From assembly GCA_030595125.1 (NCBI GenBank), contig JAUVDV010000001.1, positions 59,924 through 123,923 on the forward strand: a DNA stretch of 64,000 nucleotides, given 5' to 3'. The DNA is from Deltaproteobacteria bacterium. GTDB taxonomy: Bacteria > Myxococcota_A > Polyangia > JAAYKL01. This document shows, in pieces, positions 24,847-40,439 of the stretch. Numbering within the stretch: the stretch's first letter is position 1; the number at the start of each line of letters is the position of its first letter. A program made the position numbers and the translations under genes. Under the pieces are notes generated by a model that was given only the letters and a program-made list of their open reading frames with translations, had not been told where the DNA came from and ran no database searches.

Positions 24847-26769
24847 ATGGGCAAGACAATAGGAATCGATCTTGGAACGACAAACAGTGTTGTTGCGGTC
24901 ATCGAGGGCAAGGATCCGGTGATCATCTCCAATGAGGAGGGCGGGCGCACCACACCGTCGGTTGTGGCCTGGGACGACCAGGGCGAGATCCTCGTCGGCC
25001 AGATCGCCAAGCGACAGGCGATCACCAACCCCGAAAACACGGTTTATTCCATCAAGCGTTTCATGGGTCGCAAGCAAGCCGAGGTCGGCGAAGAGATGTC
25101 CATGGTCCCCTACGACGTGACAAAGACGGCCAACGGGGATGCACACGTAAAAATCAAGGATCGGGACTATGCCCCGCCCGAGATCGCCGCCCGTATTCTC
25201 ATGAAGCTCAAGAAAGCGGCTGAGGAGTACCTGGGCGAGCCGGTGACCGATGCGGTGCTCACCGTACCGGCCTACTTCAACGACTCCCAGCGTCAGGCCA
25301 CCAAGGACGCGGGCAAGATCGCCGGCCTGGAGATCAAGCGCATAGTGAACGAGCCCACCGCGGCAGCGCTCGCCTACGGCCTCGACAAGAAGGCCGATGA
25401 AATCATCATTGTGTACGATTTCGGCGGCGGCACCTTCGATGTTTCCGTCCTGGAGGTCGGGGACAACGTGGTGCAGGTCATCTCCACCAACGGAGACACC
25501 CACCTGGGCGGCGACAATATCGATCAGATAATCATCGAGTACCTGGTGGCGGAGTTTAAAAAGGATCAGGGCATTGATGTGTCCGGGGACAAGATGGTAT
25601 TGCAGCGGCTCAAGGAAGCCGCTGAGAAGGCAAAGATCGACCTGAGCTCCCTGATGGAGACGCAGATCAATCTCCCCTTCCTCACCGCCGACGCCTCCGG
25701 GCCCAAACACCTCAACCTGCGTCTTTCCAGAGCCAAATTCGAGTCGATGATCGGCGACGTTGTGGAGCGAACCCTCGCGCCGTGCCGCAGGGCCCTCGAG
25801 GACGGCAACAAACGGCCCGGAGATATAGATCAAGTGGTGCTCGTGGGCGGCTCAACGCGCATCCCGCTGGTGCAGCAGGCGGTGACCAAGTTCTTCGGCA
25901 AGGATCCCCACAAGGGTGTCAACCCGGACGAGGTGGTCGCCCTTGGTGCGGCAATCCAGGCCGGCGTGCTCTCCGGAGACGTCAAAGATCTGCTTTTGCT
26001 GGATGTGACGCCCCTGTCCCTAGGCGTGGAGACTCTCGGCGGGGTAATGACAACCATGATCACGCGCAACACCACCATCCCCGCAAAGAAGTCGGAGGTC
26101 TACTCTACCGCGGCGGACAGCCAGACCTCCGTGGAGATTCACGTCCTCCAGGGGGAGCGGAGCATGGCCAAGGACAACAGGACCCTCGGGCGCTTTCACC
26201 TGGAGGGCATCATGCCGGCTCCACGGGGAGTCCCAAAGGTCGAGGTTACCTTCGATATCGACGCCAATGGGATTGTCAACGTTTCGGCCAAGGATATGGC
26301 CACGGGCAAGGAGCAGAAGATCACAATCACGGCCTCCTCGGGCCTGAAAGACGGGGAGATCGATAACATGGTCCAGGACGCCGAGAAGTACAAGGCGGAG
26401 GACGAGCAGCGCAAGAAGGATATCGAAACCAGGAACAAGGCCGAGCAGCTCGCCTACGCCACCGAGAAGACCCTCGAGGAGCACAGGGACAAGCTCCCGC
26501 AAGAGGAAGTGGCGAAGGTCGAGGGGGCCATCAAATCCCTGCGGGAGGTCATCGATTCCAACGACGCGTCGCGGATAGAGTCGGAAATGGAGAACCTCAC
26601 CAAGGCGTCTCACAAGCTCGCGGAGCTGATGTATCAGGCGGCGGGAGCGAGCGTCGCCCCCGGAGCGGATCCCACGGACGGCGCCCCGGATCCGGGAGCT
26701 CCCGATCAGGCTGAAGAAGAGGGTGACAGCGACGTCATCGACGCCGAGTTCGAGGAGAACAAACAGTAG
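24847..26769 (+). CDS. dnaK: Chaperone DnaK (Hsp70)
   Basis: The 640-residue protein has all Hsp70 signatures: [17 protein letters not shown] at the N-terminus, [33 protein letters not shown], and the substrate-binding domain with [17 protein letters not shown]. The acidic C-terminus ends [12 protein letters not shown], the usual DnaK tail. It folds and disaggregates proteins with DnaJ and GrpE, neither of which is encoded next to it. AGGAGG precedes the ATG by 6 bases. The last 51 coding bases plus 20 bases of flank are duplicated at 28986-29056 beyond an inserted segment. Confidence 0.97.
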
Positions 26770-26789
26770 CCCGCAGCATCCCCTGCCCG
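26719..26789 (+). repeat. 71-bp direct repeat of dnaK 3' end, proximal copy
   Basis: It begins at GAGGGTGACAGC inside the last codons of dnaK and runs 20 bases past the stop. The distal copy at 28986-29056 matches at 69 of 71 positions. The single difference in coding sequence (AAC/AAT, Asn) is synonymous; the other lies after the stop. Confidence 0.9.
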
Positions 26790-26833
26790 TACTTCAAAAG
26801 AACCCCCCAATAATTCCGGTGAGTCGTTCTGAT

Positions 26834-26857
26834 AAAAAAAGTGACTGGCACCGAAAA
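26834..26857 (+). repeat. 24-bp boundary repeat with GTGACTGGCACCG, copy 2
   Basis: Seven A, GTGACTGGCACCG, then AAAA. An identical 24-base stretch occurs at 28958-28981. The two copies bracket the phosphatase and transposase genes. It lies 44 bases beyond the proximal dnaK-tail repeat. Confidence 0.8.
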
Positions 26858-26876
26858 TGAAGAGAAAATGGGGGAA

Positions 26877-27878
26877 ATGGTAGATCCTAACGTTGAAAGA
26901 ATGTTCGACGCGTTTTCAGTGCTGATCCTGGTTTCCGTGCTGTGTACCTTCGGATGTGCCAGTAAGGGCGCCGACGATGACTCCGACAGTGGGACTTCAG
27001 ACAGTGATTCGGATACGGGCGATGTGCCTCCAAAGCGTATAGTCGCAATCGGCGACAATCACGCCGATCTTTCCCAGGCGCTCAAGGCTTTGCAAATAGG
27101 TGGAGTTATCGACCAGTCTCTCAACTGGATAGGTGGAGACACTATCGTGGTTCAGACAGGCGATATTCTAGATCGCGGCGTTGAGGAGTGGGAAGTCATC
27201 GATTTCTACGAGAACCTGAGACCCGAGGCCGAGGCGGCCGGCGGGCAAGTTGTCAATATGAACGGAAACCACGAGATCATGACCGCCTACGAGGATTATC
27301 GCTACTTTCAGGAAGAGGCGTGCGCAGCGTTCTCCGATCTTACCGGCCTCGATACCAGCAACCCGGCGTTCGACGAGTTCACTGATGAAAATTGCAAATT
27401 GCGTGCGGCTGCATTCTGGCCCGGAGGCCCATACGCACAGATAATAGCCAACTGGCTCATGGTTGCGGTGGTTCAGGACACGGTCTTCGTTCACGGCGGG
27501 GTTCACCAGAAGCACCTCGACTATGGAATCGATGAGATCAACGCCATGACCAGGGCCTGGCTGATGGGGGAGGGAAATCTGGATTACAACCAAGTCGGCG
27601 GGGGTCCGGATGTGTTCTCGGTGGACTGGGACCGCACCTACAGCGATGACGAAATTCCTCCGACAGCGGACCAATGCGACGATCTTGCCAGTGTTCTTGA
27701 GCAATTAGGAGTTGTGCGCATGGTCGTCGGTCACACGGTTCAGAGTCATATCAACACTGTCTGCGACGATATGGCGTGGCGCATCGATACGGGCATGGCC
27801 GTGTACTACGGTGGCGTGGTCGAGGTCATTGAAATTCTGGACGGAAACGTCAACGTATTGGTCGATTTGGCAGAATAG
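26877..27878 (+). CDS. PPP-type (Shewanella-like) metallophosphatase lipoprotein
   Basis: The protein has a lipobox (VLCTFGC), a short Ser/Asp linker, and then a calcineurin-type phosphoesterase domain: IGDNHADLSQALKAL (G-D-x-H), VVQTGDILDRGVEEW (G-D-x-x-D-R) and NMNGNHEIMTAY (G-N-H-E), followed by FVHGGVHQKHL and VGHTVQSHI. The spacing matches PPP-family Shewanella-like phosphatases. It is predicted to dephosphorylate phosphoproteins or other phosphoesters outside the cytoplasm. The start is uncertain (ATG 26877, ATG 26868 or ATG 26901); an upstream GTG at 26841 falls in the repeat motif and is unlikely. It is cargo of the insert bounded by the repeats at 26834 and 28958. Confidence 0.8.
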   Translation: MVDPNVERMFDAFSVLILVSVLCTFGCASKGADDDSDSGTSDSDSDTGDVPPKRIVAIGDNHADLSQALKALQIGGVIDQSLNWIGGDTIVVQTGDILDRGVEEWEVIDFYENLRPEAEAAGGQVVNMNGNHEIMTAYEDYRYFQEEACAAFSDLTGLDTSNPAFDEFTDENCKLRAAAFWPGGPYAQIIANWLMVAVVQDTVFVHGGVHQKHLDYGIDEINAMTRAWLMGEGNLDYNQVGGGPDVFSVDWDRTYSDDEIPPTADQCDDLASVLEQLGVVRMVVGHTVQSHINTVCDDMAWRIDTGMAVYYGGVVEVIEILDGNVNVLVDLAE

Positions 27879-27967
27879 TTTTTACGCAATTGTGAATTGG
27901 CCTGATTGCTCCGAGATCTCCACGGTGCGAAGAAGTTTGTTATTGAGTGACTTACGACCGCCGGCGG

Positions 27968-28903
27968 TCAGGCCGCGAGCTTGAATTTCGTGACAAGCGG
28001 CGGCCGGAACGTGCCCGGCGGGAACTCCACATCAAAACATCCAGATCGAAAAGCCGCTGACGCTATGCGATGGGCCTTCACGATCTCCTTGTATTCCGCC
28101 TCGTACGCCTTGTAATCCTCTACTGTGTCAGCGTGACAAAGAGGTTGGGGTGTCCGCTCCCGGGGAAGGATCGGCTTTGAGAATGGGCTCTCCTTTTCGA
28201 TTCGCGCCATTCCTTTGATGTTCGTTATCCCCTCTGCCCTACGCTCTTTACGCGCCAGTTCTTCGTGATTGCGCACGATGTCGCGAAACCGCGCATGACG
28301 CGCGTCCTGGGAGAGATCCGTCCAACCGGGCAGCGGGTGAAGAACAACCTCTGTGTTCTTTGTGTATTTCGACGGGTCGATATCGTGGCGGTCAGCGCCG
28401 TTTTTCCACCAGAGGGTCCGGTCCACGTACTTGAACACGAGTCGGCCTCCGCGAGAGAGCACCTCGGTCGTTGAGAAACCCTTCCACTGGTTCGCCTTTT
28501 CCACGAGGCCGTCCTTGACCACGTTGCACGCTCCGTAACCGAGCAGTTTCTCCGCCTTGTTGTCGCTTGTTATCTCCTCGACCCGTACACGGCCTGCCCA
28601 GAAGTGCCCCTCTCGTCCGTAGAACCGGTTGAGATCTCTGGCCGCGCGCCCGGCGAACTCGCGTAAAAACGGGCTGACGTTGTCGGCCTGTCCCTCTCCG
28701 ATGGAGAAGATGAGTTCCAGGTGGTTGATGTTGGTGGTTGCGCTATGCAGCAGGATCGGGTGCAGCTTCAGGGCCCTTCCCAGGCTCGAACCTATGATGT
28801 TGTTGACCTTTTTCGACGGCTTCAGGAGAAACATTCTGTCTGCGCAATTGAGTGTTGCGTGATACATTCCATTTTCTTTCCAGATTCTGATTCTTCGCGC
28901 CAT
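27968..28903 (-). CDS. REP-associated tyrosine transposase-like protein, variant HUH
   Basis: The 311-residue protein has the layout of Y1/IS200-like RAYT transposases: RIRIWKENGMYHATLNCADR at the N-terminus, then INHLELIF where RAYTs carry N-H-x-H-L-L, and LLGYGACNVVKDGLVEK where they carry the catalytic Tyr (Y123) followed by N-P-x-x-A-G-L. The second His of the HUH metal-binding motif is Glu (H61-L-E63). It has a C-terminal extension of about 130 residues, longer than usual. GGGAG lies just before ATG. The gene sits inside the repeat-bounded insert and points towards the phosphatase gene (convergent). Activity is uncertain. Confidence 0.7.
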   Translation of the reverse strand: MARRIRIWKENGMYHATLNCADRMFLLKPSKKVNNIIGSSLGRALKLHPILLHSATTNINHLELIFSIGEGQADNVSPFLREFAGRAARDLNRFYGREGHFWAGRVRVEEITSDNKAEKLLGYGACNVVKDGLVEKANQWKGFSTTEVLSRGGRLVFKYVDRTLWWKNGADRHDIDPSKYTKNTEVVLHPLPGWTDLSQDARHARFRDIVRNHEELARKERRAEGITNIKGMARIEKESPFSKPILPRERTPQPLCHADTVEDYKAYEAEYKEIVKAHRIASAAFRSGCFDVEFPPGTFRPPLVTKFKLAA

Positions 28904-28957
28904 ACTCCCTTAATCGGTCGCTCGACGGAAAAGTTGCCGAAATTCGTCCGCCGAGTG

Positions 28958-28981
28958 AAAAAAAGTGACTGGCACCGAAAA
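28958..28981 (+). repeat. 24-bp boundary repeat with GTGACTGGCACCG, copy 3
   Basis: Identical to 26834-26857 over 24 bases and separated by only four bases from the distal dnaK-tail copy. Confidence 0.8.
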
Positions 28982-28985
28982 AGGG

Positions 28986-29056
28986 GAGGGTGACAGCGAC
29001 GTCATCGACGCCGAGTTCGAGGAGAATAAACAGTAGCCCGCAACATCCCCTGCCCG
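28986..29056 (+). repeat. 71-bp direct repeat of dnaK 3' end, distal copy
   Basis: It repeats the last 17 codons of dnaK, including the stop codon, plus 20 bases of flank with two changes. It has no start codon and is not a gene. It lies 7 bases before the 3' end of the convergent heme lipoprotein gene. Confidence 0.9.
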
Positions 29057-29063
29057 CGTGAGC

Positions 29064-29501
29064 CTACCAGGTAATGGGTCCTCCACCGTGGCAACTCATT
29101 CCGGTGCAGGTCTGAGTTGAGGTGTCGTAGCTTCCGCTCCCTCCTGGAGCGATGTCCGGATTCTCATCCGTATGGGCCGTCTGGTCGGTTATCGAACCGG
29201 AACTGTCTACCATCGTATGACAGGTACTACAGCCCATGGAGTGATCGCTATGGGAACCCGTATTGGGTGGATTTCCGTGACATGAATCACAGCCCAGATC
29301 GGTATCAGTGTCCGTATCAGTGTCCGTATCCGAATCGGTATCGCTGTCCGAATCGCTGTCTGAATCCGAGTCACCGTCCGAATCGGAGTCGCTGTCCGAA
29401 TCGGTATCGCTGATGATGTCATCATCATCTCCACAACCGGGTACAAAAACCAATCCAGGTGCCAGTAGTGTGGCCACAAATATGATCATCCATTTTCCCA
29501 T
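29064..29501 (-). CDS. Small c-type-heme lipoprotein with Asp-Ser linker
   Basis: The 145-residue protein has a signal with VFVPGC lipobox, an (Asp-Ser/Thr)n linker at about residues 30-67, then CDSCHGNPP and CSTCHTMVD (two C-x-x-C-H heme motifs) and CTGMSCHGGG (the C-x4-C-H variant typical of Geobacter-type multiheme cytochromes). It is predicted to be a small outer-membrane-anchored electron-transfer protein. It is very short compared with multiheme relatives, as if only one repeat unit is kept. AGGAGG lies upstream of the ATG. Confidence 0.75.
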   Translation of the reverse strand: MGKWMIIFVATLLAPGLVFVPGCGDDDDIISDTDSDSDSDSDGDSDSDSDSDSDTDSDTDTDTDTDTDLGCDSCHGNPPNTGSHSDHSMGCSTCHTMVDSSGSITDQTAHTDENPDIAPGGSGSYDTSTQTCTGMSCHGGGPITW

Positions 29502-29591: not shown

Positions 29592-30365
29592 CTATATTTT
29601 CGAAAAGGAAGCTTCGATGATCTCTGCGAGTTGTTCCGTGGATTCCCACTGGGGCATGTGTCCAACCCCGGGAAGGACAACCAGGCGGGCTCCTCGGATC
29701 TCCCTGGCAAGTTCCTTGCCTTTGTCAATAGAGGCAACCCGGTCTTCCGATCCGTGGACCACGGTGCAGGGACAGGAGATCTCGTGCAGTCTGGAACCAA
29801 AGTCGAAGCGTCCACACGCAGCACGTTGACCGGCAATTCCTCGGCCCGTCGCCCGCCGTTCGATCCGTTCCGCGACAAGTGTCTCAAAATCATCTGCGCG
29901 ATCCGAGCAGAAATACTCACCAACGCATACGGCGAGAGTCTCGCGAACGATTTCCTCAACCGGGCCTCTCGTGCGCCCCATGGCTGCAATCGCGTCCGGA
30001 GTTGATCCCAGGGCGTCGGATCGCCCGCCGCGCGCGGTACTCAGGAGGAGGAGCCCACTAACGGCTTCGGGGAAATCCGCAGCGATTTGCAACGCGATCA
30101 GCCCGCCCATGGAGTGTCCCACAACCCCAAATCGATCCATGTGGAGGGCTCTCGCCAGTCCAATGGTATCCGCAGCCATTTTCTCGATAGTGTACGGACC
30201 GTCGGGGGCGTCGCTCTTGCCGGAACCCCGGTTGTCCACCAACACGCATGTAAACCGATCCCGAAGGAGCGTCGCGAGCGGGTTCCAGACGGTCAGGTCC
30301 AATCCCAGTCCGGCCAGGAAAATCAAAGGTGGTCCGTTACCGCTCACCTCGTGGTTGATCGTCAA
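29592..30365 (-). CDS. Alpha/beta hydrolase
   Basis: The 257-residue protein is a complete alpha/beta-hydrolase: FLAGLGLDLTVWNPL (oxyanion region), VLVDNRGSGKSDAPDGPYTI, VVGHSMGGLIALQ (nucleophile elbow G-H-S-M-G), HGSEDRVASIDKGKEL (acid) and PGVGHMPQWEST (His). It resembles 3-oxoadipate enol-lactone hydrolase-like esterases, but the substrate is unknown. It starts at TTG 30365 immediately after the stop codon of the HTH-receiver gene, so the pair is probably co-translated. Confidence 0.85.
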   Translation of the reverse strand: MTINHEVSGNGPPLIFLAGLGLDLTVWNPLATLLRDRFTCVLVDNRGSGKSDAPDGPYTIEKMAADTIGLARALHMDRFGVVGHSMGGLIALQIAADFPEAVSGLLLLSTARGGRSDALGSTPDAIAAMGRTRGPVEEIVRETLAVCVGEYFCSDRADDFETLVAERIERRATGRGIAGQRAACGRFDFGSRLHEISCPCTVVHGSEDRVASIDKGKELAREIRGARLVVLPGVGHMPQWESTEQLAEIIEASFSKI

Positions 30366-31199
30366 CTAGTGACCACTTCGCAAGTTCCGCAGCAGTCTGC
30401 CGAGGGGTCGAGAACGCAAGGGGCGTTCGAGGATCTCCGATGCGCCGCTCCCCTTTGCCGCGCGAACCACCTCCGGGGCCATGGTCAGGCTGGTGGCGAC
30501 CACCTCGGTGGCGCTGGTGGCTTCGCTGGTGGTGAGGCTGCGGACAGCCGCGAATCCGTCAGCCTGACCCATGAAGAGGTCCAGGATGACGAGCCGGGGA
30601 TGGAGCTGGCCGGCAACTATCAGAGCCTCCGGAATGGAGCGCGCCACGACACCGGCGATGCCGGTTCCCTCTCCGGAGAGGTTGGTGAAGACGTCTATGG
30701 TGGTGTCGTCGTCGTCCGCGAGCAATACCACTACGTCGCGGCCGTCCTCGGTCAGTCGGCGGGAGGAAGAGCCCCGCCTGAACAACCGCTCGTGCTTGAG
30801 CGCAGTACGCCTCGCGACTCTAGCCTCGGATCCGTCAGACGACACCAGGGTCATTGACTGACCGTTGGCCGGAAGGACGAGCTGCTCGCCAATGAAGCGC
30901 ACGAACTCTCTCTCCTTGGACATGAGCTCCAGAGCCTCGCTCGCTGTCAGGTAGCCGGCGGCCACGTGTGACAGCACCGATATGTCGATGCCGAGGGACA
31001 GGGATAGGGCGAGAAGCCGGGCCGCGTCGTTGACCGCGATCTGACCGTGCTTCCAGCGACTCGTTCTGGCGCTCTCAAGTCCGATCATCCTTCCGAGTTC
31101 GGCGTCGCTCATCTTTTCGGATGTATCCAGATCGTCCGCCACGGTCCGCACCAGGAGAAACAGCTCCAGACTGCTCGGAAATAGTGGGATCTTGCTCAA
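30366..31199 (-). CDS. HTH-receiver fusion regulator
   Basis: The 277-residue protein begins at TTG 31199 with AGGAG 6 bases upstream. Its N-terminus resembles an XRE-like helix-turn-helix (DAELGRMIGLESARTSRWKH). After a linker, residues of about 155-277 form a receiver-like domain: VVVLLADDDDTTIDVF (acidic pocket), LVILDLFMGQADGFAA (phospho-acceptor Asp) and EVVATSLTMAPEV. Most response regulators carry the output domain after the receiver, so this order is reversed. No kinase is adjacent. It diverges from the oxidoreductase operon at 31327 and is a candidate regulator of it. Confidence 0.7.
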   Translation of the reverse strand: MSKIPLFPSSLELFLLVRTVADDLDTSEKMSDAELGRMIGLESARTSRWKHGQIAVNDAARLLALSLSLGIDISVLSHVAAGYLTASEALELMSKEREFVRFIGEQLVLPANGQSMTLVSSDGSEARVARRTALKHERLFRRGSSSRRLTEDGRDVVVLLADDDDTTIDVFTNLSGEGTGIAGVVARSIPEALIVAGQLHPRLVILDLFMGQADGFAAVRSLTTSEATSATEVVATSLTMAPEVVRAAKGSGASEILERPLRSRPLGRLLRNLRSGH

Positions 31200-31326
31200 C
31201 GGGTGCTCCTAAAAAAAGGTTACGTCGATGTTAAGGGTTCTAGAAGAACTATTTACTGTTGCAAAGTGGAAAATTAAAAGCGAGAAAGAGCCGGCGAGGG
31301 CTTTATTGTCGTAGAGGAACAAACCT

Positions 31327-32463
31327 ATGGCCGGCCGCAAGCGTGTAGCTGAAACAACAGAGGTTCTCCTTCAGGGCAACGTGGCCGTGGCGGAAGCCGC
31401 CATTGCCGTGGGATGCCGGTTCTTCGGCGGTTATCCGATCACTCCTTCGAGCGAGATCATGGTTCGCATGGCCGAGTTGTTGCGCGCTGATGACGGCGTG
31501 TTCATACAAATGGAGGACGAGCTGGCCTCCATCTGCGCCGTGATCGGAGCTTCATGGAGCGGCGCAAAGTCGATGACAGCCACCTCCGGACCGGGCTTGA
31601 GCCTGATGCAGGAGGCCCTCGGCTACGCCTACTTCACCGAAACCCCGCTTGTGTTGGTGGATATCCAGCGAGCCGGGCCCGCCACGGGACAGGCGACCCA
31701 CGTGGGCCAGGGCGATATGATGCAGTTCAAGTACGGATCCCACGGAGATGTGTTCCCCGTGGCTCTGGTCCCCTGGTCGGTGCAGGAGTGCTACGATCTC
31801 ACCATCCGCGCGTTTAATCTCTCGGAGAAGTTCAGGGTGCCCGTCTTCCTCGCAGCCGACGAGGCCGTGGGACACCTGCGTGAGAACGTGGTGTTGCACA
31901 GGAATTTCGAGGTTGTGGATAGGATAAAAGAAGGAGCGGGCGATCCGTTCGGCTCACCGTTGCCGGATGGAGTTCCGATCATGCCGGCTTTTGGGGATGG
32001 CGGGCGCCTGATGGTGACCGGCTCAACCCATGACGGTCGGGGATTTCGAAAAGTGGACGATCCGGAAATACACGACACTCTCGTAACACGGTTGATGCGA
32101 AAGACTCTGGATCACGTGGACGAGATCGTGGAGGTCGAGGAATACATGCTCGACGATGCCGAGATTGCCTTTTTCGCGTACGGAGTCTCCGCCCGATCGG
32201 CGTTGGCGGCGGCGAAACGACTGCGCTCGAAGGGTGTCAAGGCCGGGCTGTTGCGGGCTCTGACCATCTGGCCGTTCCCGGAGAAACAGGTGACACAGCT
32301 CGGTGCGAGGGTGAAGACCATCGTGGTTCCAGAGCTGAACAAGGGTATGATAACCGGGGTGGCCCGGGGGTTCACCGGCACGCCGGTGCACGCTTTTGCG
32401 CAGACCAACGGGAAAATCATAGAGCCCGATAGCCTGGTGAAATTCGTGGAAGGGCTTCCATGA
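31327..32463 (+). CDS. korA: 2-oxoacid:acceptor oxidoreductase, alpha subunit (KorA-like)
   Basis: The 378-residue protein has the pyrimidine-binding domain of 2-oxoacid:ferredoxin oxidoreductases: GCRFFGGYPITPSSEIMVRM, QMEDELASICAVIGASWSGA, TATSGPGLSLMQEALGYAYF and GPATGQATHVGQGDMMQFKY. The C-terminal transketolase-like part contains IWPFPEKQV and VPELNKGMI. The closest type is 2-oxoglutarate or branched-chain 2-oxoacid enzyme alpha subunits without a fused gamma domain. It forms one complex with the next two genes and decarboxylates a 2-oxoacid to acyl-CoA, passing electrons to ferredoxin. It is first of six genes with short overlaps. Confidence 0.9.
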   Translation: MAGRKRVAETTEVLLQGNVAVAEAAIAVGCRFFGGYPITPSSEIMVRMAELLRADDGVFIQMEDELASICAVIGASWSGAKSMTATSGPGLSLMQEALGYAYFTETPLVLVDIQRAGPATGQATHVGQGDMMQFKYGSHGDVFPVALVPWSVQECYDLTIRAFNLSEKFRVPVFLAADEAVGHLRENVVLHRNFEVVDRIKEGAGDPFGSPLPDGVPIMPAFGDGGRLMVTGSTHDGRGFRKVDDPEIHDTLVTRLMRKTLDHVDEIVEVEEYMLDDAEIAFFAYGVSARSALAAAKRLRSKGVKAGLLRALTIWPFPEKQVTQLGARVKTIVVPELNKGMITGVARGFTGTPVHAFAQTNGKIIEPDSLVKFVEGLP

Positions 32464-33218
32464 CGCGCGATATGAACAAGTACCTGCGCGACGGGTTGCC
32501 CGGAACGCGCTTCTGTCCGGGGTGTGGGCATGGAATTCTCATGGGCGCGATCCTCAGGGCGGTCGACCGACTCGACGTGGCTCTGGACGATCTGCTGTTT
32601 GTCTCCGGAATCGGGTGCGCGGCGTGGATCCCCAGCCCCAACATAGGAACCGATACGCTCCATACGTTGCACGGGCGTGCGCTGGCTTTTGCCACCGGCG
32701 CCAAGCTCGCCAACCCGAAATTGACCACAATAGTTGCGTCGGGGGACGGGGATCTGACATCCATCGGGGGGAACCACCTTATTCACTCCGCGCGGCGCAA
32801 CCTGGACGTCACCGTCATCTGCGCGAACAATCTGATCTACGGAATGACCGGCGGTCAAACAGCGTCAACCACACCGGTGGGAGCGCGCACATCCACCGAT
32901 CCCGACGGGAACAATTTTCGGCCCTTTGATATCTGCAACCTGGTGATGGCGTCCGGAGCCAGGTACGCCGCTCGTTTCCCGGTGACTCGCCCGAAGCAAC
33001 TGATCGACGCCATCGAGAAGGCTCTGCGAATCGAGGGCTTCACCTTCGTAGAGGCGGTGAGTCCGTGTCCGACCCAGTTCGGACGCCGTAACTCGACGGC
33101 GGAAATCTCCGCGTTGTACGACAGCGTGGATTCCCAGTGTATCTCCCGGGCGGAGGCACAGACCATGGATGAGGACGAGCGATTGCGCCATTTCGTCGTT
33201 GGAGAGTTCGAACCATGA
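32460..33218 (+). CDS. korB: 2-oxoacid:acceptor oxidoreductase, beta subunit (TPP)
   Basis: The 252-residue subunit binds thiamine diphosphate: FCPGCGHGILMGAI, SGIGCAAWIPSPNIGTDTLH, and the G-D-G-D motif in VASGDGDLTSIGGNHLIHSA, followed by ICANNLIYGMTGGQTASTTP. It joins the alpha and gamma subunits. The ATG overlaps the stop of the alpha gene by 4 bases. The cysteines in the N-terminal CPGC and in SPCPTQFG may ligate an Fe-S cluster as in other enzymes of this class. It has no separate ferredoxin domain. Confidence 0.92.
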   Translation: MTRDMNKYLRDGLPGTRFCPGCGHGILMGAILRAVDRLDVALDDLLFVSGIGCAAWIPSPNIGTDTLHTLHGRALAFATGAKLANPKLTTIVASGDGDLTSIGGNHLIHSARRNLDVTVICANNLIYGMTGGQTASTTPVGARTSTDPDGNNFRPFDICNLVMASGARYAARFPVTRPKQLIDAIEKALRIEGFTFVEAVSPCPTQFGRRNSTAEISALYDSVDSQCISRAEAQTMDEDERLRHFVVGEFEP

Positions 33219-33775
33219 ACCACGCCATGAACAGATCTCCGGTTCAGGTGCGCATTGGCGGCGAGGCGGGCCAGGGCGTGATTCTCGCCGGCGTCATGCT
33301 GGCACAGGCGGCCATCGGGGATGGTCGCAAAGTGGCTCAATCCGCGCGTTACGGCGCAGCGGTTCGCGGTGGTGAGGCGACTGCGGATCTGGTTATCTCC
33401 GATACGCCTATCGATTATCCCCACGTGGAGACTCCGGACATCCTAGTGGTCTTTTCCCAGCAGACTTACGACAAATTCGCGCCGGCCGGGACCGGAGATA
33501 CAAAAGTGTTCTACGATCCGTTTTTCGTCACGCCGTCGAAGACCGCCGGGGGCAGCCTCTGGGAGATCTCCGCCACCGAGATGGCCATCGAGAAGTTCGG
33601 CAAGAGCACCTCTTCCAATCTGATCGTCCTGGGTTTCATCGCACAGCTCACGGAGGTGGTATCGGAGGAAAGCCTGCTCGCCGCTATCGAGCAAAACCTC
33701 CCGTCCAGGCACCGCGCTGCGGGTCTCGAGGCGCTTGCGATGGGAAAAAAGGCGGCTGTGGAGGCAGGTGCATGA
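33215..33775 (+). CDS. korC: 2-oxoacid:acceptor oxidoreductase, gamma subunit
   Basis: The 186-residue subunit contains VRIGGEAGQGVILAGVMLAQ and QSARYGAAVRGGEATADLVI, the defining motifs of the gamma (CoA-binding) domain. It completes the alpha-beta-gamma catalytic core. It overlaps both neighbours by 4 bases, which supports stoichiometric translation. Confidence 0.9.
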   Translation: MNHAMNRSPVQVRIGGEAGQGVILAGVMLAQAAIGDGRKVAQSARYGAAVRGGEATADLVISDTPIDYPHVETPDILVVFSQQTYDKFAPAGTGDTKVFYDPFFVTPSKTAGGSLWEISATEMAIEKFGKSTSSNLIVLGFIAQLTEVVSEESLLAAIEQNLPSRHRAAGLEALAMGKKAAVEAGA

Positions 33776-35127
33776 GCGGCGGCAGGACCCACAGGCCACA
33801 ACGCGATTCGGCCAAATGCATGGTCTGCGGCGGGTGCACGTGGCAGTGCCCGGCAACGGTTTTTCCCAGCCTGAGGAGCGAGGAGGGATCTCTGAGGGGT
33901 GAGATCTACAGCTCAAAAGAGTTTCCCGGCGAGATGGCCGACCGTCCTCCCTGCGTGATGGCGTGCCCCCTGGGTCAGGATGTCCCGGGATATATCAGCG
34001 CCATAGCGCGGAATGACGTGGACGAGGCTGCAATTATTGTTCGCAGGACCAACGCCCTGCCATCCGTGTGCGGCCGTGTCTGCATCGCCTCCTGCATGAG
34101 GGCCTGCACAAGGGCGAGAATCGACATGGGCGTGGACATTCGCTCGCTGAAACGCTTTGCCGTGCACGTGGCCGCGGAGGCGCAAGTTGAAACGAATGTC
34201 GGGGCCGGCTCGGTGGCGATTATCGGATCCGGCCCGGCAGGTCTGGCGGCGGCCCACAGATTGAACCAGCTGGGTGTTCGATCGGTGGTGTTCGATGCGG
34301 GCTCGACTCCGGGTGGTTCAATGACGGACACGGTGCCGCGATTCGTTCTGCCCCGTGAGATGGTGGCAAAGGACGCGGCCCGCCTGGTACGGATGGGTGT
34401 CGATATTCGTTCGGGAACTCGCATCGGGGAGGACATATCCTTTTGCGACCTGGAGTCTTCATATGAGGCCGTGCTGGTAGCTACCGGGGCGCGACGGGAT
34501 CTGGCGGCTGCGTTTCGAGGATCAGAGCTGAAGAATATTGTCGGCGCTGCGGAGTACTGCCGAAACGAACGGAAGATGGACGGCGTGGTGGTTGTGAACG
34601 GTGGTGGTCCGTCGGCGGTGCAGGCGGCCCGATTGGCCGTGCGGCTCGGCGCCCGGAGCGTATCAGTGATCCACCCTGCGCCCCTGGAACAGTGGCCGGC
34701 GGGGGATCACGCCCTTGGGCTTGCGCGCGAAGAAGGTGTTGAGGTTCGCCCCACGCATCGAATAGTGGAAGCGCAGGGTCAAGACGGGATCCTCACGGCG
34801 GTGATGGTGAAGGCCGTCAAGGCCGATAACGCGGACGAGGTTGGCAGGTACAAGCTCGCTTCCCGCGGCGCGGTCGAGCAGCTGGAGGCGGGGCTCCTGA
34901 TCGTGGCCGGCGAGCGGAGATCATCGACCGAGGACCTGCCCGATCTCGACGGCATTACACGCGGGGTACTCGGTAATCTACTGATCGACGAAGAGTATCG
35001 CCTCGGGCGGGAGCGCTGGTACGCGGCCGGCGAGTGTGCGACCGGAGCAGCCACGGTGGTCGATTCAATGGCCACCGGGAGGCTTGCGGCCGAGACTATT
35101 CATCGCGATCTCGAGTTGGGAAAGTAA
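33772..35127 (+). CDS. GltD/NfnB-like FAD/NAD(P) oxidoreductase with Fe-S sites
   Basis: The 451-residue protein begins with a ferredoxin-like stretch (AKCMVCGGCTWQCPATVF) and the GltD-type N-terminal cluster region (CVMACPLGQDVPGYI ... VCGRVCIASCMRACT). A dinucleotide-binding flavin domain follows (VAIIGSGPAGLAAAHRLNQL) and a second Rossmann motif (VVVNGGGPSAVQAARLAVRL). It ends with GEWYAAGECATG-like FAD contact (WYAAGECATGAATVVDSMAT). It is predicted to move electrons between NAD(P)H and the oxidoreductase ferredoxin centres. The coupled start (4-base overlap) supports membership of the complex. Confidence 0.85.
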   Translation: MSGGRTHRPQRDSAKCMVCGGCTWQCPATVFPSLRSEEGSLRGEIYSSKEFPGEMADRPPCVMACPLGQDVPGYISAIARNDVDEAAIIVRRTNALPSVCGRVCIASCMRACTRARIDMGVDIRSLKRFAVHVAAEAQVETNVGAGSVAIIGSGPAGLAAAHRLNQLGVRSVVFDAGSTPGGSMTDTVPRFVLPREMVAKDAARLVRMGVDIRSGTRIGEDISFCDLESSYEAVLVATGARRDLAAAFRGSELKNIVGAAEYCRNERKMDGVVVVNGGGPSAVQAARLAVRLGARSVSVIHPAPLEQWPAGDHALGLAREEGVEVRPTHRIVEAQGQDGILTAVMVKAVKADNADEVGRYKLASRGAVEQLEAGLLIVAGERRSSTEDLPDLDGITRGVLGNLLIDEEYRLGRERWYAAGECATGAATVVDSMATGRLAAETIHRDLELGK

Positions 35128-35130
35128 CCG

Positions 35131-35910
35131 ATGGCCATTTCACTCACCATAGACGGCGAACAGGTAACGGCGAAAGAGGGACAGAGCCTTCTTGCCGTTG
35201 CCCGGGCAGCCGGGGCCATGATCCCGTCCCTGTGTGCCCATCCCCATCTCAAGCCTTACGGCGCCTGCCGCATGTGCCTGGTGGAGGTGACGAGGAACGG
35301 GCGGACTCGGATCACCACATCGTGTAATTACGAAGTGCTCGACGGGATAGAGGTGAGAACCGACACGGAGGAAGTCCGGCGACATCGGAAGATGGTGCTT
35401 CGCCTGTTGCTCGGCATTGCGCCACAGGCCTCCGCGATCGTGGGGATGGCGAAAGCCAACGGTGTCGATGAGTCGACATTCACACCTTGGGAGCCGCCGG
35501 CGGGACGGGAAAACTGCATACTGTGCGGATTGTGCGCCCGCGTCTGTGAGGAGGTGGTGGGAGCTTGCGCCCTGACCCTGAGTGGTCGGGGCGACAGGAG
35601 AGGGTTGGAGGTGCCGTACGCGCAGCGGGTGGCGGAGTCGTGCATCGGATGCGGAGCCTGCGCTGCGGTTTGCCCCACGGGCGCGGTGGAGGAGGAGAGC
35701 ATCAAGGTGGAGGTGCTGCGAAAACGTCCTGCCACGGAAAGAAAGTGCCGGTACAACATGATGGGCCTGATGCCCGGCGCCCTGTGTCCAAATAACTACG
35801 ACTGCGCCGCCTGTGAAGTTGATCAACGGTTTGTCGAGGCGTGTCGCCCACACCACCCGATATTCGCCGCGAAGGGCCTCATTTCTCCGAAGGGTTGGGA
35901 GAGTAAATGA
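35131..35910 (+). CDS. HoxU/NuoG-like 2Fe-2S and 4Fe-4S electron-transfer subunit
   Basis: The 259-residue protein has an N-terminal plant-type 2Fe-2S ferredoxin domain (MIPSLCAHPHLKPYGACRMC, then TSCNYEV), a segment with EVRRHRKMVLRLLLG typical of NuoG-N/HoxU, and two 4Fe-4S motifs (CILCGLCARVCEEVVG and CIGCGACAAVCPTGAVEEE). Such subunits link NAD(P)H dehydrogenase or hydrogenase modules. Here it lies between the flavoprotein and a small ferredoxin, so it probably carries electrons in the 2-oxoacid oxidoreductase complex. The next gene overlaps by 4 bases. Confidence 0.85.
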   Translation: MAISLTIDGEQVTAKEGQSLLAVARAAGAMIPSLCAHPHLKPYGACRMCLVEVTRNGRTRITTSCNYEVLDGIEVRTDTEEVRRHRKMVLRLLLGIAPQASAIVGMAKANGVDESTFTPWEPPAGRENCILCGLCARVCEEVVGACALTLSGRGDRRGLEVPYAQRVAESCIGCGACAAVCPTGAVEEESIKVEVLRKRPATERKCRYNMMGLMPGALCPNNYDCAACEVDQRFVEACRPHHPIFAAKGLISPKGWESK

Positions 35911-36230
35911 CTACGCGTTCTGACGTATGCACGGTGAAGGGGGAAAAACGCGTAAGCCCGGCGATGGCGAGCGGAGCGCAACGTGTAAAGAGCTTCGACG
36001 AGGTGGAGCCGACCCTGACCCTGGCCGAGGCATCCTACGAAGCGCTTCGATGCACCGTATCGAGCCCGTGCCTGTACTGTGACGTCTGTCAGCTCATGTG
36101 CCCTGATCTGGCCATCACCCGCGATCCCAAATCGGGAGAGATCATTATTGATCTGGATTTCTGCAAGGGCTGCGGATTGTGCGCCCACTACTGCCCGCGC
36201 GGGGCCATCGACATGGTCCTGGACGAATAA
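35907..36230 (+). CDS. Ferredoxin-like delta subunit (2 x 4Fe-4S)
   Basis: The 107-residue protein carries two 4Fe-4S motifs, CLYCDVCQLMCPDLAI and CKGCGLCAHYCPRGAIDM, in the usual KorD/PorD arrangement, with an N-terminal extension of about 50 residues. It is expected to accept electrons from the catalytic core. It is the last gene of the operon and converges on the hsp20 genes 10 bases later. No terminator hairpin was recognised in that gap. Confidence 0.85.
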   Translation: MTTRSDVCTVKGEKRVSPAMASGAQRVKSFDEVEPTLTLAEASYEALRCTVSSPCLYCDVCQLMCPDLAITRDPKSGEIIIDLDFCKGCGLCAHYCPRGAIDMVLDE

Positions 36231-37152: not shown

Positions 37153-37302
37153 GTTTTCTCTTCGCAATGCAATGTGGGCACCGTTTTTGTGCGGTAAAGC
37201 CCGGGTTGTGTTTTTTTTGGGAGGGAAAAAACCGATCATGGAAAGGACGTTTTATAGTGTCGTCGATCACAAGCGGGGTAAAATGGTGTTCAGGAGGACG
37301 CC

Positions 37303-37770
37303 GTGAAGAGAATCTCAATATTGACGATATGCATTGGCGTGTTGGCTGTGACATTCACCTGGAGTGGCTGTGACGACGAGGGCGGCACGGACGAGTTTTC
37401 GGAAGCACGCCAGAGGTGCGTGCAGAAGATCAATGATTTTCGCGCCACCGAGGGGATACCTGCCCTGGCCCGCTGGTACAGCGGAGAACCCTGCGCCGAC
37501 GACGAGGCAAAGCAGGACGCCCAGGCGGGGCAGTCTCACAGCGCTTTTGGACAGTGCGGCGAGGCGGCCCAGAACGAGTGCCCGAGCTGGCCCTCGGTGG
37601 ACGACATCATCGACGGATGCCTCCAGAGCATGTGGGACGAGGGACCGGGCGCTGACTACAGCGTTCACGGACACTATATCAACATGAGCAGCACCAGTTA
37701 CGAAAAGGTAGCCTGCGGGTTCTACAGGACGTCCGCCGGTGACATCTGGTCTGTGCAGAATTTCAAATAG
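37303..37770 (+). CDS. CAP-domain (SCP/PR-1-like) lipoprotein
   Basis: The 155-residue protein starts at GTG 37303 with AGGAGG 5 bases upstream. It has a lipobox (TWSGC) and then a CAP-type alpha-beta-alpha domain: RCVQKINDFRATEGIPALAR, DAQAGQSHSAFGQCG and GHYINMSSTSYEKVACGFYR. The last matches the conserved G-H-Y ... V-x-C-G block of the family. Bacterial CAP proteins are secreted and of mostly unknown function. It diverges from the hsp20 pair. Confidence 0.85.
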   Translation: MKRISILTICIGVLAVTFTWSGCDDEGGTDEFSEARQRCVQKINDFRATEGIPALARWYSGEPCADDEAKQDAQAGQSHSAFGQCGEAAQNECPSWPSVDDIIDGCLQSMWDEGPGADYSVHGHYINMSSTSYEKVACGFYRTSAGDIWSVQNFK

Positions 37771-37787
37771 TCCCCAAAAAGACAGGT

Positions 37788-38711
37788 GTGAGATTGCGAC
37801 ACGATAAACCGTCCCGCAGAAAGTTTTTCGGCGATTGCGCCGTCGCGGTGGCCGCCGTCGGGGTGGGCGCGGCAGTGGGTTGTGCGGGGGAGACCGACCG
37901 GGCAAAAGCGGAGGCTCCGGGGACCCATCACGAGCCGGGTGAATGGTGGACCGAGGGCCGTTACGTGGTTCACCGAACGGTCGATGCATCCAGGCTCAAT
38001 GATGGTCTGTTGAGAGCCAGAATCGACGGCTCCTGGCGTGACGTATCGGTGGTGAACCTTCCGGACAGGTTTGTGCGATGGAGTTTCGAGGAGAGGATAG
38101 CCCGCCTTGCAAAGCTGGCCGCCGTGGGGTTCGATACCAGAGATCTGGACGGGCCCCACAACGCGTGCGTGGCCACATACGGAGGCTGGAGTCGCGACTC
38201 GGCGTTCTCCCTCAACACAGCCTACAAGGGGATGGGGTTCACGCCTACCGAGGAGAGGCTTCCGGGCACTCTCGACGAACTTGGGGAAGAGTCGGAGCGG
38301 ATCCGCAGGGCGTCCAGGGGCGATTTCATGGCCGACATGCGTGAGAAGATCAAGTTTCTGGCCGGTCTCTACAACGACGCGAGCCGCTTCGATATGACCA
38401 GGCAGGTCTCCCTCGAGCTCTTTACGGAGCCGGGATATGCCACGCACACTTTTCTGAACATGATGGCCAACCCCATCGTCTCCGCGTCGTTCCTGGCCTA
38501 TCCGACCTTTGAGATACGGGCGGTTCCGCAGCTCCTGCACCCGGAAAACCCCGCGCTCACGCCTCACGAGCGGAACGTTGTTCGCTACACGAACGCGATT
38601 CACGATTTCGTTCACGGTGGTACGGGGGATCGGATGACCTGCATCTACCACATTTGCGAGGTGTTCGACGACACGCCTAACAAGGGTGGAGCGGGCACGC
38701 GGCTTGTCTGA
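37788..38711 (+). CDS. Hypothetical Tat-exported protein
   Basis: The 307-residue product starts at GTG 37788 and has a twin-arginine signal (SRRKFFGDCAVAVAAVG) with a nearby Cys (VGCAG) that could be a lipobox. The rest, with ARIDGSWRDVSVVNLP, FDTRDLDGPHNACVAT and ERNVVRYTNAIHDFVHGG, belongs to no family I can name with confidence. Tat export suggests it folds, possibly with a cofactor, before translocation. The last 56 coding bases plus 30 bases of flank are duplicated at 40354-40439 on the far side of the radical SAM gene. Confidence 0.6.
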   Translation: MRLRHDKPSRRKFFGDCAVAVAAVGVGAAVGCAGETDRAKAEAPGTHHEPGEWWTEGRYVVHRTVDASRLNDGLLRARIDGSWRDVSVVNLPDRFVRWSFEERIARLAKLAAVGFDTRDLDGPHNACVATYGGWSRDSAFSLNTAYKGMGFTPTEERLPGTLDELGEESERIRRASRGDFMADMREKIKFLAGLYNDASRFDMTRQVSLELFTEPGYATHTFLNMMANPIVSASFLAYPTFEIRAVPQLLHPENPALTPHERNVVRYTNAIHDFVHGGTGDRMTCIYHICEVFDDTPNKGGAGTRLV

Positions 38712-38741
38712 CGTCATGTGACAAGTGATGGGTATTGACCC
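38656..38741 (+). repeat. 86-bp direct repeat of host gene 3' end, proximal copy
   Basis: It runs from GCGAGGTGTTCG in the last codons of the 37788 gene to GGGTATTGACCC, 30 bases past the stop. The distal copy at 40354-40439 has 4 differences in 86. Both coding differences (GCG/GCT Ala and CTT/CTC Leu) are synonymous. The end of each copy has a GGGT-ATTG-ACCC-like hairpin, intact in this copy only. Confidence 0.9.
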
Positions 38742-40353
38742 CTTTCCTTTCCGGATAGAAGCGGGTTACTAATTCAGGGATCTCTGCGTCCATTCAGTTT
38801 CATCATTGCCAAATGAGCGGCCCTGAACCACCGGGGGGTTCTTAAGTGGGCTTCGCGGATGGAGGGTGTTGTCAGAAACGACTTATCGATGAAGTTTCGA
38901 GCTTCTTCCCGGGGAGAGATACCGCCGCATGTAAAAGGGCGATACAAATGAATGACGTCTTCGTTGCCGGGATAGTCTCCCATCATTATCTCAAATTCTT
39001 CGGCCCGTTGTGCAAGTTCGCAGTACTTGGGAAGGTTGAACAACGACAGGTTCATGAAATCCACATCGGAGGAGTTGCTTTCAATGAGATCGAGAGTCGC
39101 TTGCCGGTGCTCAGACGTTTCGCCCGGTAAGCCGAACAAAAGATACAGATAAGTACGGATACCCGCGGCTGCAGCTTGTCGAATTGTTTCTGCCGATTCT
39201 TTTGCGCGTAGCCCTTTATCGAAACGGTCGAGCAAATTGTCGCTTCCACCCTCTACACCCAATTGCAGCATCAACAATCCGGCCTCAGCGGCATCTTCGA
39301 GCAGCCCGTCTCGCGTGAGTTCTTCAGAGGGCCGAGCGAATCCGTAGAACTTTACTCCGTACTCACGGGCCGCAGGAAGAAATTGTCGTAGTCTTTTGGG
39401 GGGAATTGCCGAGTCCAGCAAATGAACGATGGGTCTGCGTTCAATAATGTCATTGGGTATGGAACTCAGGAATTGTGTGTACGATGATTCGGGCACTTTG
39501 ACGAAGGGCATCTCCCTGTCCGGGCAAAAAAGGCAGCGGCGCCAGTAACAACCAGTGGACAGGGTGAATGGAACAACGGGGTGGGCACTCAGGTAGGGCA
39601 GACTGCTTACAAGCGTAGGCCAGGAGATTCTATCCCAAAAACCCAGTTCGTTTTGATTGGGGATCAGTGATGCCCCGTTGGACAAATCGATTGTTCCAAG
39701 TACTTTATGAAGCGCATCGAGTCCATGCCCGGTCGTAGCGAGGCTGCGAGGGAGTGATCCTCCAATTATGGGTTCAATACCTCTCTGTTTGAGAAATGAA
39801 ACCAAGTCGATTGTTGAAGCCAGCTGTGACAGATATGCCAATGAGATAAGAACATGTTTGGGCTTTATCTCATTGAGCACTGGTTCCAGGCGTTCCTCCC
39901 ATAGTTGTGAAAATGGGTTGGCACCGTTGGAAAGCCGGTCGGCTAGTGCAGACGGATCGTGTACGTGTTCCGGCGAAGTAATGTCCATGAAAGTGAGTTT
40001 CCAGCCGGAATTGATGTTCGAATACTGTTTGAGTTGCTTGTGCAATGAGCCGGCTGCGGTTCTGTGCCGCATCGGGTCGTATCCGGTTTTCATGTTCAGC
40101 AGATACTGCACCGAGTTTTCAACAGCCGCAGTTTTTATTTCGGGATGATCGAGGGTTTGATGAAAGAACTCCAGCGAGAGATCAAAAAGGCCGGCGTCAT
40201 AGCCGTTTCCGGTCAAACCCGCTGCCAGTATGAAAGCTCCGGAAGGGGGTTCTGCCGGAGTGCACACAGGTCCGGAGAGTACAAGATACTCCATTTGGGG
40301 AAACTACATTGCCTGCACAAGGTGCTCAACAATAATTCTCATCCTTAGAAAAA
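38742..40353. mobile_element. Insert between duplicated host-gene tails (radical SAM gene)
   Basis: This 1612-base segment carries one complete gene (radical SAM, minus strand) and is bracketed by the 86-bp direct repeat. It reads as visibly AT-richer than its neighbours, with more TTG, AAT, GAA and TAT codons. No recombinase is encoded inside. The pre-insertion order would be the Tat protein gene followed by the gene at 40491. Confidence 0.6.
38774..40294 (-). CDS. B12-binding-type radical SAM protein
   Basis: The 506-residue protein starts MEYLVLSGPVCTPAEPPSGA and its first 220 residues look like a cobalamin-binding-like domain. The radical SAM cluster motif is STGCYWRRCLFCPDREMPFV, in the form C-x4-C-x2-C instead of C-x3-C-x2-C. 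PIVHLLDSAIPPKRLRQFLP, LMLQLGVEGGSDNLLDRFDKG and YLYLLFGLPGETSEHRQAT are typical radical SAM core strands. Substrate unknown; related proteins methylate RiPP precursors, lipids or hopanoids. No precursor peptide was recognised nearby. The start lacks a strong ribosome binding site. Confidence 0.8.
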   Translation of the reverse strand: MEYLVLSGPVCTPAEPPSGAFILAAGLTGNGYDAGLFDLSLEFFHQTLDHPEIKTAAVENSVQYLLNMKTGYDPMRHRTAAGSLHKQLKQYSNINSGWKLTFMDITSPEHVHDPSALADRLSNGANPFSQLWEERLEPVLNEIKPKHVLISLAYLSQLASTIDLVSFLKQRGIEPIIGGSLPRSLATTGHGLDALHKVLGTIDLSNGASLIPNQNELGFWDRISWPTLVSSLPYLSAHPVVPFTLSTGCYWRRCLFCPDREMPFVKVPESSYTQFLSSIPNDIIERRPIVHLLDSAIPPKRLRQFLPAAREYGVKFYGFARPSEELTRDGLLEDAAEAGLLMLQLGVEGGSDNLLDRFDKGLRAKESAETIRQAAAAGIRTYLYLLFGLPGETSEHRQATLDLIESNSSDVDFMNLSLFNLPKYCELAQRAEEFEIMMGDYPGNEDVIHLYRPFTCGGISPREEARNFIDKSFLTTPSIREAHLRTPRWFRAAHLAMMKLNGRRDP

Positions 40354-40439
40354 GCGAGGTGTTCGACGACACGCCTAACAAGGGTGGAGCTGGCACGCGG
40401 CTCGTCTGACGTTATGTGACAAGTGATGAGTATTGACCC
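40354..40439 (+). repeat. 86-bp direct repeat of host gene 3' end, distal copy
   Basis: A second copy of the last 18 codons plus stop of the 37788 gene and 30 bases of flank, with four substitutions. It has no start codon and no gene function of its own. It lies 51 bases before the TTG start of the next gene. Confidence 0.9.

Follow-up and report, generated by a model that had tools for sequence, protein, structure and literature searches.

What leaves an intact bacterial gene with a second copy of its own 3′ end lying farther downstream? The question is raised by two genes in a 64,000-nt stretch of contig JAUVDV010000001.1 (hereafter the window, meaning the whole of this stretch) from an uncultured organism, Deltaproteobacteria bacterium (GCA_030595125.1). 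One is dnaK (site 1) and the other is a gene, G, for a protein with a twin-arginine translocation (TAT) signal (site 2). In both cases the tail that ends the intact host gene (T1) recurs as a displaced downstream copy (T2). Specifically, the two dnaK copies comprise 76 nt and the two G copies 86 nt, each pair 95% identical and each second copy about 2 kb downstream, all at the positions given by an earlier note on this DNA (Table 1). We consider it probable, at roughly 0.6, that such second tails are scars of homology-facilitated illegitimate recombination, through which imported DNA of a relative would have left two alleles of one locus stacked behind each other. The pattern itself is real and recurrent, and it is unusual in number and position.

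Recurrence of duplicated gene tails

Direct repeats with copies at most 10 kb apart were sought in 1.083 Mb (20%) of the analysed genome, in 271 kb of G002, and in 400 kb each of G006 and G055. G001 and G002 are sister species from the same genus, G006 belongs to the same family and G055 to the same class. The scan of G001 covered 86 kb, in stretches chosen from earlier hits, and is hence biased. In sampled stretches of at least 5 kb from the analysed genome, there were 36 direct repeat pairs (length at least 40 nt, identity at least 80%), the majority of them intragenic, as against 0 pairs in three local shuffles under the same criteria, so the tail repeats are not a product of chance. Six gene tails were duplicated in the analysed genome, the two window sites among them, and two in G001; none was recognized in the scanned parts of G002, G006 or G055. 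The earlier note had made its idea depend on further 3′ ends that occur twice, and these do exist (C55, C67, C101 and C3 in the analysed genome, C397 and G in G001).

The four additional loci of the analysed genome are diverse. C55 is a gene for a 986-aa surface protein with a 104-nt match, an enclosed methyltransferase gene and three synonymous differences; it has no DNA match in G001 or G002, and its changes therefore could not be polarized. C67 has a 40-nt tail match and encloses a DEAD-box helicase gene; because the match stops short of the stop codon, the survey program did not flag this locus as a tail, and it was classed by eye. At C101, a 500-aa gene, the 268-nt match runs into the head of the next gene and contains one synonymous and four nonsynonymous differences, and no clear orthologous site was read out. 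The 54-nt match at C3 contains no synonymous and two nonsynonymous differences. C3 and C101 may be paralogous C-termini, and both are still counted among the six.

All eight loci share a common arrangement, in which the host gene with T1 and a set of genes X is followed by T2, a set of genes Y and the flank. The tails are all short (about 40 to 178 coding nt). For each T2 shown, the sequence on its left bears no relation to what precedes the tail in the host gene, such that the joint at this point is non-homologous. No host gene in the scan of the analysed genome had its 5′ end alone duplicated, save a transposon remnant at C167. Without the two window sites, which were given at the outset, tails outnumber heads by 4 to 0 (two-sided binomial 0.125; 0.03 with these sites included), an excess that is only suggestive.

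This survey does not support the class of 3′-end-targeting cassettes that the earlier note had proposed. Cargo, borders and neighbouring motifs vary from locus to locus, and transposase genes, of the Y1 or the REP-associated tyrosine transposase (RAYT) type, where REP stands for repetitive extragenic palindromic, are present at three of the eight loci, the other five having no transposase among the proteins scanned. Every gene, moreover, has its own tail, and no roaming element could supply them all. A site-specific integrative element would be expected to bring an integrase and a constant attachment site; no integrase was found among 11 between-tail proteins (all scanned with Pfam and nine also with NCBIfam, with small open reading frames (ORFs) outside the scan), and each locus presents a different gene tail.

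Synonymous differences and the copy that changed

Comparison codon by codon revealed a single difference between the dnaK tails (AAC/AAT, in 17 codons with the stop counted) and two between the G tails (GCG/GCT and CTT/CTC, in 18 codons with the stop counted), and all three are synonymous, as the earlier note had said. The same holds across the four loci with clean tails (site 1, site 2, C55 and C397, a set that omits C101, C3 and the G tails of G001), where every one of the 11 codon differences is synonymous (1, 2, 3 and 5, respectively, with one of those at C397 in the stop codon). Without selection this outcome would have a chance of about 5e-7 (between 2e-7 and 1e-6 when transitions are weighted 1 to 4), and both copies at these loci therefore look like real C-termini. 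Selection on both copies, as originally suggested, does not extend equally well to the remaining loci: over the seven that can be compared (C67 cannot), synonymous differences outnumber nonsynonymous ones by 16 to 8 (a chance of 9e-5 if 28% of changes were synonymous), and the differences at C101 (1:4) and C3 (0:2) fit decay or paralogy. Changes in an intact copy are also always filtered by selection, so that synonymy alone is no proof that the displaced copy was selected.

With respect to which copy changed, the differences had been taken to lie in the displaced one. This is the case at the two window sites, where the intact tails match the sister species at all three differing codons, which places the changes on the T2 side; the CTC codon of T2 at site 2 is common to the second G tail of G001. 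It is not the case at C397. When compared with G002, in which this site is empty with a single tail, and with the orthologue in the analysed genome (C95), the intact C397 tail has three private synonymous changes and the displaced tail has one. Since the displaced 93-nt tail has one change where many would be expected beside the three of the intact tail, the two sequences probably did not start as one.

A similar picture emerges for G in G001, which also has two tails, the second with about 178 coding nt, on contigs C468 and C164. An IS200-like transposase gene (PF01797, Y1_Tnp, above cut-off; 73 bits against 80 for the REP-transposase model) lies behind T1 and a Leu-rich-repeat-like gene behind T2. 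Mismatches between the two tails number 7 in 178 nt, as against 6, 6 and 8 in comparisons among the intact genes of the three species, and both amino-acid differences between the tails are states present in orthologues. These values fit a second tail that would be another lineage's allele rather than a duplicate in decay.

C397 and the G tails of G001 bear directly on an alternative in which foreign DNA inserts with a long target duplication, such that 50–180 bp of gene end are copied upon entry and the two tails start out identical. In formal terms the structure matches this well, with long direct repeats of a target that is single copy in a relative, and C397, C67 and site 2 are all empty in G002. 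Long target duplications of variable length are also reported for Helicobacter pylori and restriction–modification genes (PMC1643837 and PMC3031569). An identical start is difficult to reconcile, however, with tails that differ by 4–5%, mostly at synonymous positions, with an unselected copy at C397 that has fewer private changes than the selected one, and with G tails in G001 that differ like species alleles; at the latter two loci the copies do not appear to derive from one target. On balance, target duplication seems unlikely.

A candidate donor tract

The G002 counterpart of C67 contains one tail, with the isocitrate dehydrogenase gene directly after it, and the analysed genome has 2.2 kb, including the helicase gene, after T1. 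The host gene to the left of T1 is 92.5% identical to G002. To the right of T2, 250-bp windows are 97–100% identical to G002 up to about position 53,027 and 91–93% identical thereafter, with the exception of the first window (89%), which contains a 19-nt gap and five substitutions beside the tail. Over C67:50,793-53,027 as a whole, there are 30 substitutions in 2,235 positions, or 98.7% identity, as compared to a mean of 89.3% and a maximum of 95.2% for 89 background 500-bp windows, none of which reaches 97%. The monomeric isocitrate dehydrogenase of C67 likewise shows 2.8 synonymous differences per 100 codons from its G002 counterpart, against 8.8–22.6 in ten other gene comparisons with G002 or G001. 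Identity this high to G002, in an 89–92% background, points to a recent exchange of the gene.

This pattern is what would be expected had a G002-like fragment entered by homologous recombination at its right end and been joined without homology, on its left, at the gene tail. C67 is the single locus with a homologous tract at one end of the foreign DNA. Here the displaced tail and the DNA that follows it look like the imported side; the proposal that an incoming element supplied the new tail and displaced the old one describes just one of two directions. In G001, parts of the between-tail DNA of C67 follow the same host gene tail in a rearranged order.

Proposed stacking of alleles by half-homologous import

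In the reading that we favor, donor DNA from a related lineage would have paired homologously on one side and would have been joined without matching on the other. An allele of the form gene–T–X–flank and another of the form gene–T–Y–flank could thereby give gene–T–X–T–Y–flank through one homologous crossover, with the other joint near the gene end. One of the two would have entered as a linear fragment, by transformation or another route, and the joint would have fallen inside the 3′ end of either the donor's or the recipient's gene. As a result, the variable neighbour genes of both versions would stand in a row behind one intact host gene. Such variable neighbours are observed, in that the interval behind dnaK, and likewise that behind G, contains different genes in each of the three sister species. 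The survival of short tails alone may reflect the tendency of long direct repeats to recombine and lose the insert, and a joint at the 3′ end would spare both promoter and gene. At two loci the joint coincides with the end of a RAYT-like element, and it is speculative that this element made the joint. Homology-facilitated illegitimate recombination requires RecA and DNA uptake. The ComEC and DprA families, the two that were sought, are present in 3 of 3 genomes of the genus and in 10 and 11 of 14 control genomes; they would allow DNA uptake but do not prove it. At the two window sites, import is proposed from the pattern and by analogy with C67, C397 and the G tails of G001.

Several observations weigh against this interpretation. 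No donor tract was found at the two window sites, the flanks of which have ordinary identity to G001 and G002, and the 20 nt of 3′ flank common to both tails of site 1 are absent from both sister species, so that the donor would have to be a close, unsampled lineage. The C67 tract ends approximately at the start codon of the isocitrate dehydrogenase gene, which was not found in G001, and that gene could therefore have been exchanged separately. The differences at C101 and C3 are mostly nonsynonymous. The joints lie about 40–180 nt before the stop codon at all eight loci, with few or no head duplications, a regularity that plain random joining would not predict. The G001 version of site 2 requires that contigs C468 and C164 face each other, which we infer; their outer flanks are ordered as in the analysed genome, and the gap between them is unsequenced. 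Lastly, every genome used is a draft assembly.

Organization of the two window sites

Table 1. Features of sites 1 and 2, in window coordinates
Feature	Position	Strand	Remarks
dnaK, host gene of site 1, intact, 640 aa	24847..26769	+	NF001413 / TIGR02350 above cut-off; both sister species have orthologues whose tails are almost identical to it
dnaK tail T1	26714..26789	+	Includes stop codon and 20 nt of 3′ flank
REP-like motif AAAAAAAGTGACTGGCACCGAAAA, first copy	26834..26857	+	
Calcineurin-like phosphoesterase (M)	26841..27878	+	PF00149; 90-92% identity, same position in G001 and G002
RAYT-like element	27923..28981	-	Same stretch at G001 C397 and G002 C125, 88-90% identity
RAYT-like protein, 311 aa	27968..28903	-	NF047646, E 3.7e-9, 36.6 bits
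REP-like motif AAAAAAAGTGACTGGCACCGAAAA, second copy	28958..28981	+	On the 5′ side of the RAYT-like gene
dnaK tail T2	28981..29056	+	Begins where the RAYT-like element ends
Ser/Asp-rich CxxCH lipoprotein-like gene (S)	29064..29501	-	Next after T2; sister matches confined to low-complexity repeats
Alpha/beta hydrolase (H)	29592..30365	-	PF00561; conserved right flank of site 1
TAT-signal protein (G), host gene of site 2, intact	37788..38711	+	TIGR01409 above cut-off; orthologues in G001 and G002
G tail T1	38656..38741	+	REP-like motif after stop
Second REP-like motif, around TGACAAGTGATGGGTATTGACCC	38715..38744	+	Behind both G tails
Radical S-adenosylmethionine (SAM) gene	38774..40294	-	Enclosed by G tails; PF04055; best NCBIfam TIGR04479, far below cut-off
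G tail T2	40354..40439	+	Same REP-like motif
155-aa ORF	40452..40919	+	After T2; taken as neighbour gene of the second allele; no Pfam family
Lipoprotein-like gene end and alanine racemase	41051..42522	-	Conserved right flank of site 2

A single cassette that spans T1 to T2 was rejected for site 1. The phosphoesterase gene M, whose true start is probably downstream of the listed GTG, sits between dnaK and the hydrolase gene in both sister genomes, where it overlaps the hydrolase gene; it is therefore an old, ancestral neighbour of dnaK and not cargo. Between dnaK and M (26770–26840 in the window), each sister species has a Ser/Asp-rich surface gene of its own, which encodes a 587-aa surface protein in G001 and a 341-aa lipoprotein in G002. 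Neither is present in the interval of the analysed genome, which contains just 44 nt after T1 and a REP-like motif. The C-terminus of hydrolase H (29592–29620) reads EASFSKI in the window and GDFLATLPD... in both sisters, where it overlaps the phosphoesterase gene. From 29609 to 36229, between the two sites, gene order is conserved and has no relation to the duplications. Site 2 is empty in G002, in which G is followed by 42 bp and then by the conserved right flank.

The RAYT-like element and the REP-like motifs

The statement in the earlier note that no recombinase is recognizable was incorrect at site 1, as the gene at 27968–28903 on the minus strand encodes a divergent RAYT-like protein. 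Its score of 36.6 bits is below the NF047646 cut-off of 80, and no Pfam match was found, which leaves the protein short of the family threshold. The analysed genome contains two full-length paralogues (37–38% identity) and two fragments. At the position where we take the HUH motif to be expected, the site 1 protein has NHLE and its paralogues have NTMQ; to judge from these residues, the motif looks degenerate. Tyr-123, presumably the catalytic tyrosine, is conserved in all four aligned RAYT-like proteins. A RAYT-like family that lacks an intact HUH motif (NHLE, NTMQ) and retains both this tyrosine and a conserved C-terminal half may represent a new transposase-like family.

The element at 27923–28981 stands alone at other loci of both sister species and is thus a separate unit. 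With up to one mismatch, the 17-base core of the AAAAAAAGTGACTGGCACCGAAAA motif is found 33 times in the analysed genome and 0 times for a reversed control, the dispersed REP-like repeats that would accompany a RAYT. The TGACAAGTGATGGGTATTGACCC motif, with up to three mismatches, occurs at 5 places in the analysed genome, 12 in G001, 0 in G002 and 0 for the control.

The position of the element suggests a further alternative, in which RAYT-like transposition itself makes the joint, an element end being cut and joined one-ended to the homologous gene tail so that two alleles are linked. The displaced tail indeed starts no more than about 10 nt from this element at both site 1 and C397 of G001, next to the same element end in each case, and the other element end is not continued by the rest of the host gene at either locus. 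In addition, the G tails of G001 enclose the IS200-like transposase gene, and GACCCC(C)TTTTCTT was noticed there by eye both after T1 and before T2, and REP-like motifs follow both G tails of the analysed genome. Against these points, transposase genes are confined to three of the eight loci and a joint at an element end to two, the ends of five element copies showed no target sequence in common (an apparent CCT preference did not hold across the five and was dropped), NHLE or NTMQ occupies what we presume to be the HUH position, and the element could have entered a pre-existing scar. Transposition as the source of the joints is consequently distinctly improbable. We also regard as quite unlikely the more specific proposal that RAYT-like transposases, which normally maintain REP repeats, serve as a joining enzyme of allele stacking, by cutting at their own end just behind a gene and ligating this end to that gene's 3′ tail on homologous DNA that has entered the cell.

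Tandem duplication and assembly error as possible alternatives

Tandem duplication of a tail and its neighbours within one genome, followed by different losses from each copy, could formally derive the dnaK–T1–M / T2–S–H arrangement from a duplicated T–S–M unit with deletions, and the permuted cargo segments of C67 in G001 are in keeping with such a history. This route is nevertheless very improbable, as it requires several losses at each locus and yields neither the species-level tail differences nor the G002-like tract. Least credible of all is an artefact in which strain variants of one population were merged by the assembler: the draft metagenome assemblies used throughout (with k119/k127 contig names in the sister records) could come from strain mixtures holding such alleles, but no identical run at the two window sites exceeds 41 nt, a repeat-driven misjoin would yield gene–T–Y and not gene–T–X–T–Y, and the joints lie inside contigs at seven of eight loci in two species, with the T2 joint of the eighth (site 2 of G001) 135 nt inside its contig.

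Rejected candidates and other repeats

Various repeats were examined as tail duplications and rejected. In the analysed genome, these were domain repeats in surface proteins (C3:235 included, with a stop in one copy), Leu-rich repeats, multihaem paralogues, and a low-complexity repeat within one ORF (C173:109736). Also rejected were REP-like or dispersed repeats (C173:57320/59907, C167:22458/22948, C167:33677/36145, C14:56970/64684 and C26:42715/51822), a 54-nt intergenic repeat between divergent genes (C167:43550/46665) and an intergenic pair (C18:29025/29295). The pair C167:73694/74810 is by eye a duplicated transposase 5′ end, which makes it a head-type case that belongs to a transposon remnant. 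In G002, the stop codon alone aligns at C60:5079/6499, and the remaining rows for this genome were judged from the table only; C207:2367/4360 of G001 was set aside. In G055, three places with a stop codon inside a repeat were set aside: L207:1104 involves 12 nt of a doubtful ORF that by eye lies inside an opposite-strand gene, L207:5364 is a 106-nt dispersed element, and L221:2089 is a copy of the end of a tRNA-Ala gene.

Three of the repeat types encountered are worth recording in their own right. The 106-nt element of G055 (C1, L207, 5364–17427) occurs four times within 12 kb at 97–100% identity and is unrelated to tails. Direct repeats of 67–74 nt that end in AAAAGTGACTGGCACCGTTT (window positions 31–47; C173:57320-59980; C167:22458-23014) flank small groups of ORFs downstream of other genes, with one ORF of 126 aa in one instance and two of 389 and 467 aa in another, and these groups are possibly REP-bounded mini-cassettes. 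Finally, a dispersed repeat of the form AACCCCATCCCGGCCTTCCCCTGC..AGGGGAAGGGGAAG is present in several contigs (C167:33677; C14:56970 and 64684; C26:42715 and 51822).

Relation to known systems and significance

Genes that vary between the same conserved genes and are exchanged via recombination in the flanks are a feature that the tail loci share with minimal mobile elements. Gene-turnover hotspots between core genes, for which double homologous recombination in the two flanking core genes has been proposed (Oliveira 2017, PMC5635113), resemble the present loci in their varying genes between the same conserved genes and in recombination in the flanks; unlike the hotspots, the tail loci have one joint that is non-homologous, and alleles are added to each other.

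The closest precedent is homology-facilitated illegitimate recombination (de Vries and Wackernagel 2002; Prudhomme 2002; Meier and Wackernagel 2003; PMC3240628), with one homologous anchor, one non-homologous joint and a gain of foreign DNA, a shape that the C67 tract shares. The process was demonstrated there by experiment, whereas here it is deduced from sequence, recurs at 3′ ends and would leave a tail as its scar. PMC2884548 also presents a scheme that combines a homologous end with an illegitimate one, and PMC3784515 covers tandem duplications through transformation. For Vibrio cholerae type VI secretion system (T6SS) effector genes, sequential displacement has been proposed (Kirchberger 2017, PMC5361080), in a study that also mentions orphaned 3′ regions at Rhs loci. 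As at the tail loci, a new module is placed behind a conserved anchor and the old downstream gene and displaced 3′ end are kept, and the same mechanism was proposed. The T6SS arrays differ in that the effector end is replaced and an immunity gene kept, whereas at the tail loci the C-terminus does not change and the neighbour genes have no relation to each other.

The H. pylori insertion with long target duplication (Nobusato 2000, as described in PMC1643837 and PMC3031569) likewise places an insert between long direct repeats copied from the target. That case is tied to restriction–modification genes, whereas none was found among the 11 scanned proteins here and the copies differ like alleles. 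In terms of the RAYT-like element, REP-associated tyrosine transposases and REP elements (PMC2817692, PMC3116915) provide the parallel of a transposase-like gene with its own motif and many dispersed copies of that motif; the site 1 protein departs from them in a score below the family cut-off and, at the position where we assume the HUH motif to lie, in the absence of an intact one.

A limited literature search found no paper in which gene-tail scars with synonymous differences serve as a genome-wide record. The type of event is already known, and what is new is its recurrence at 3′ ends together with RAYT or Y1 transposase genes at three of eight loci. Half-homologous import is known mainly from selection experiments. 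If tail scars are its natural record, they could be counted in any genome and would show the locus, the joint, the co-imported neighbours and sometimes the donor, such that the rate of gene gain by this route would become measurable. The growth of hotspots by addition and not replacement, without integrases, would then be explained. Were RAYT-like joining also true, the genus would have a means of adding gene variants behind its core genes while never breaking them.

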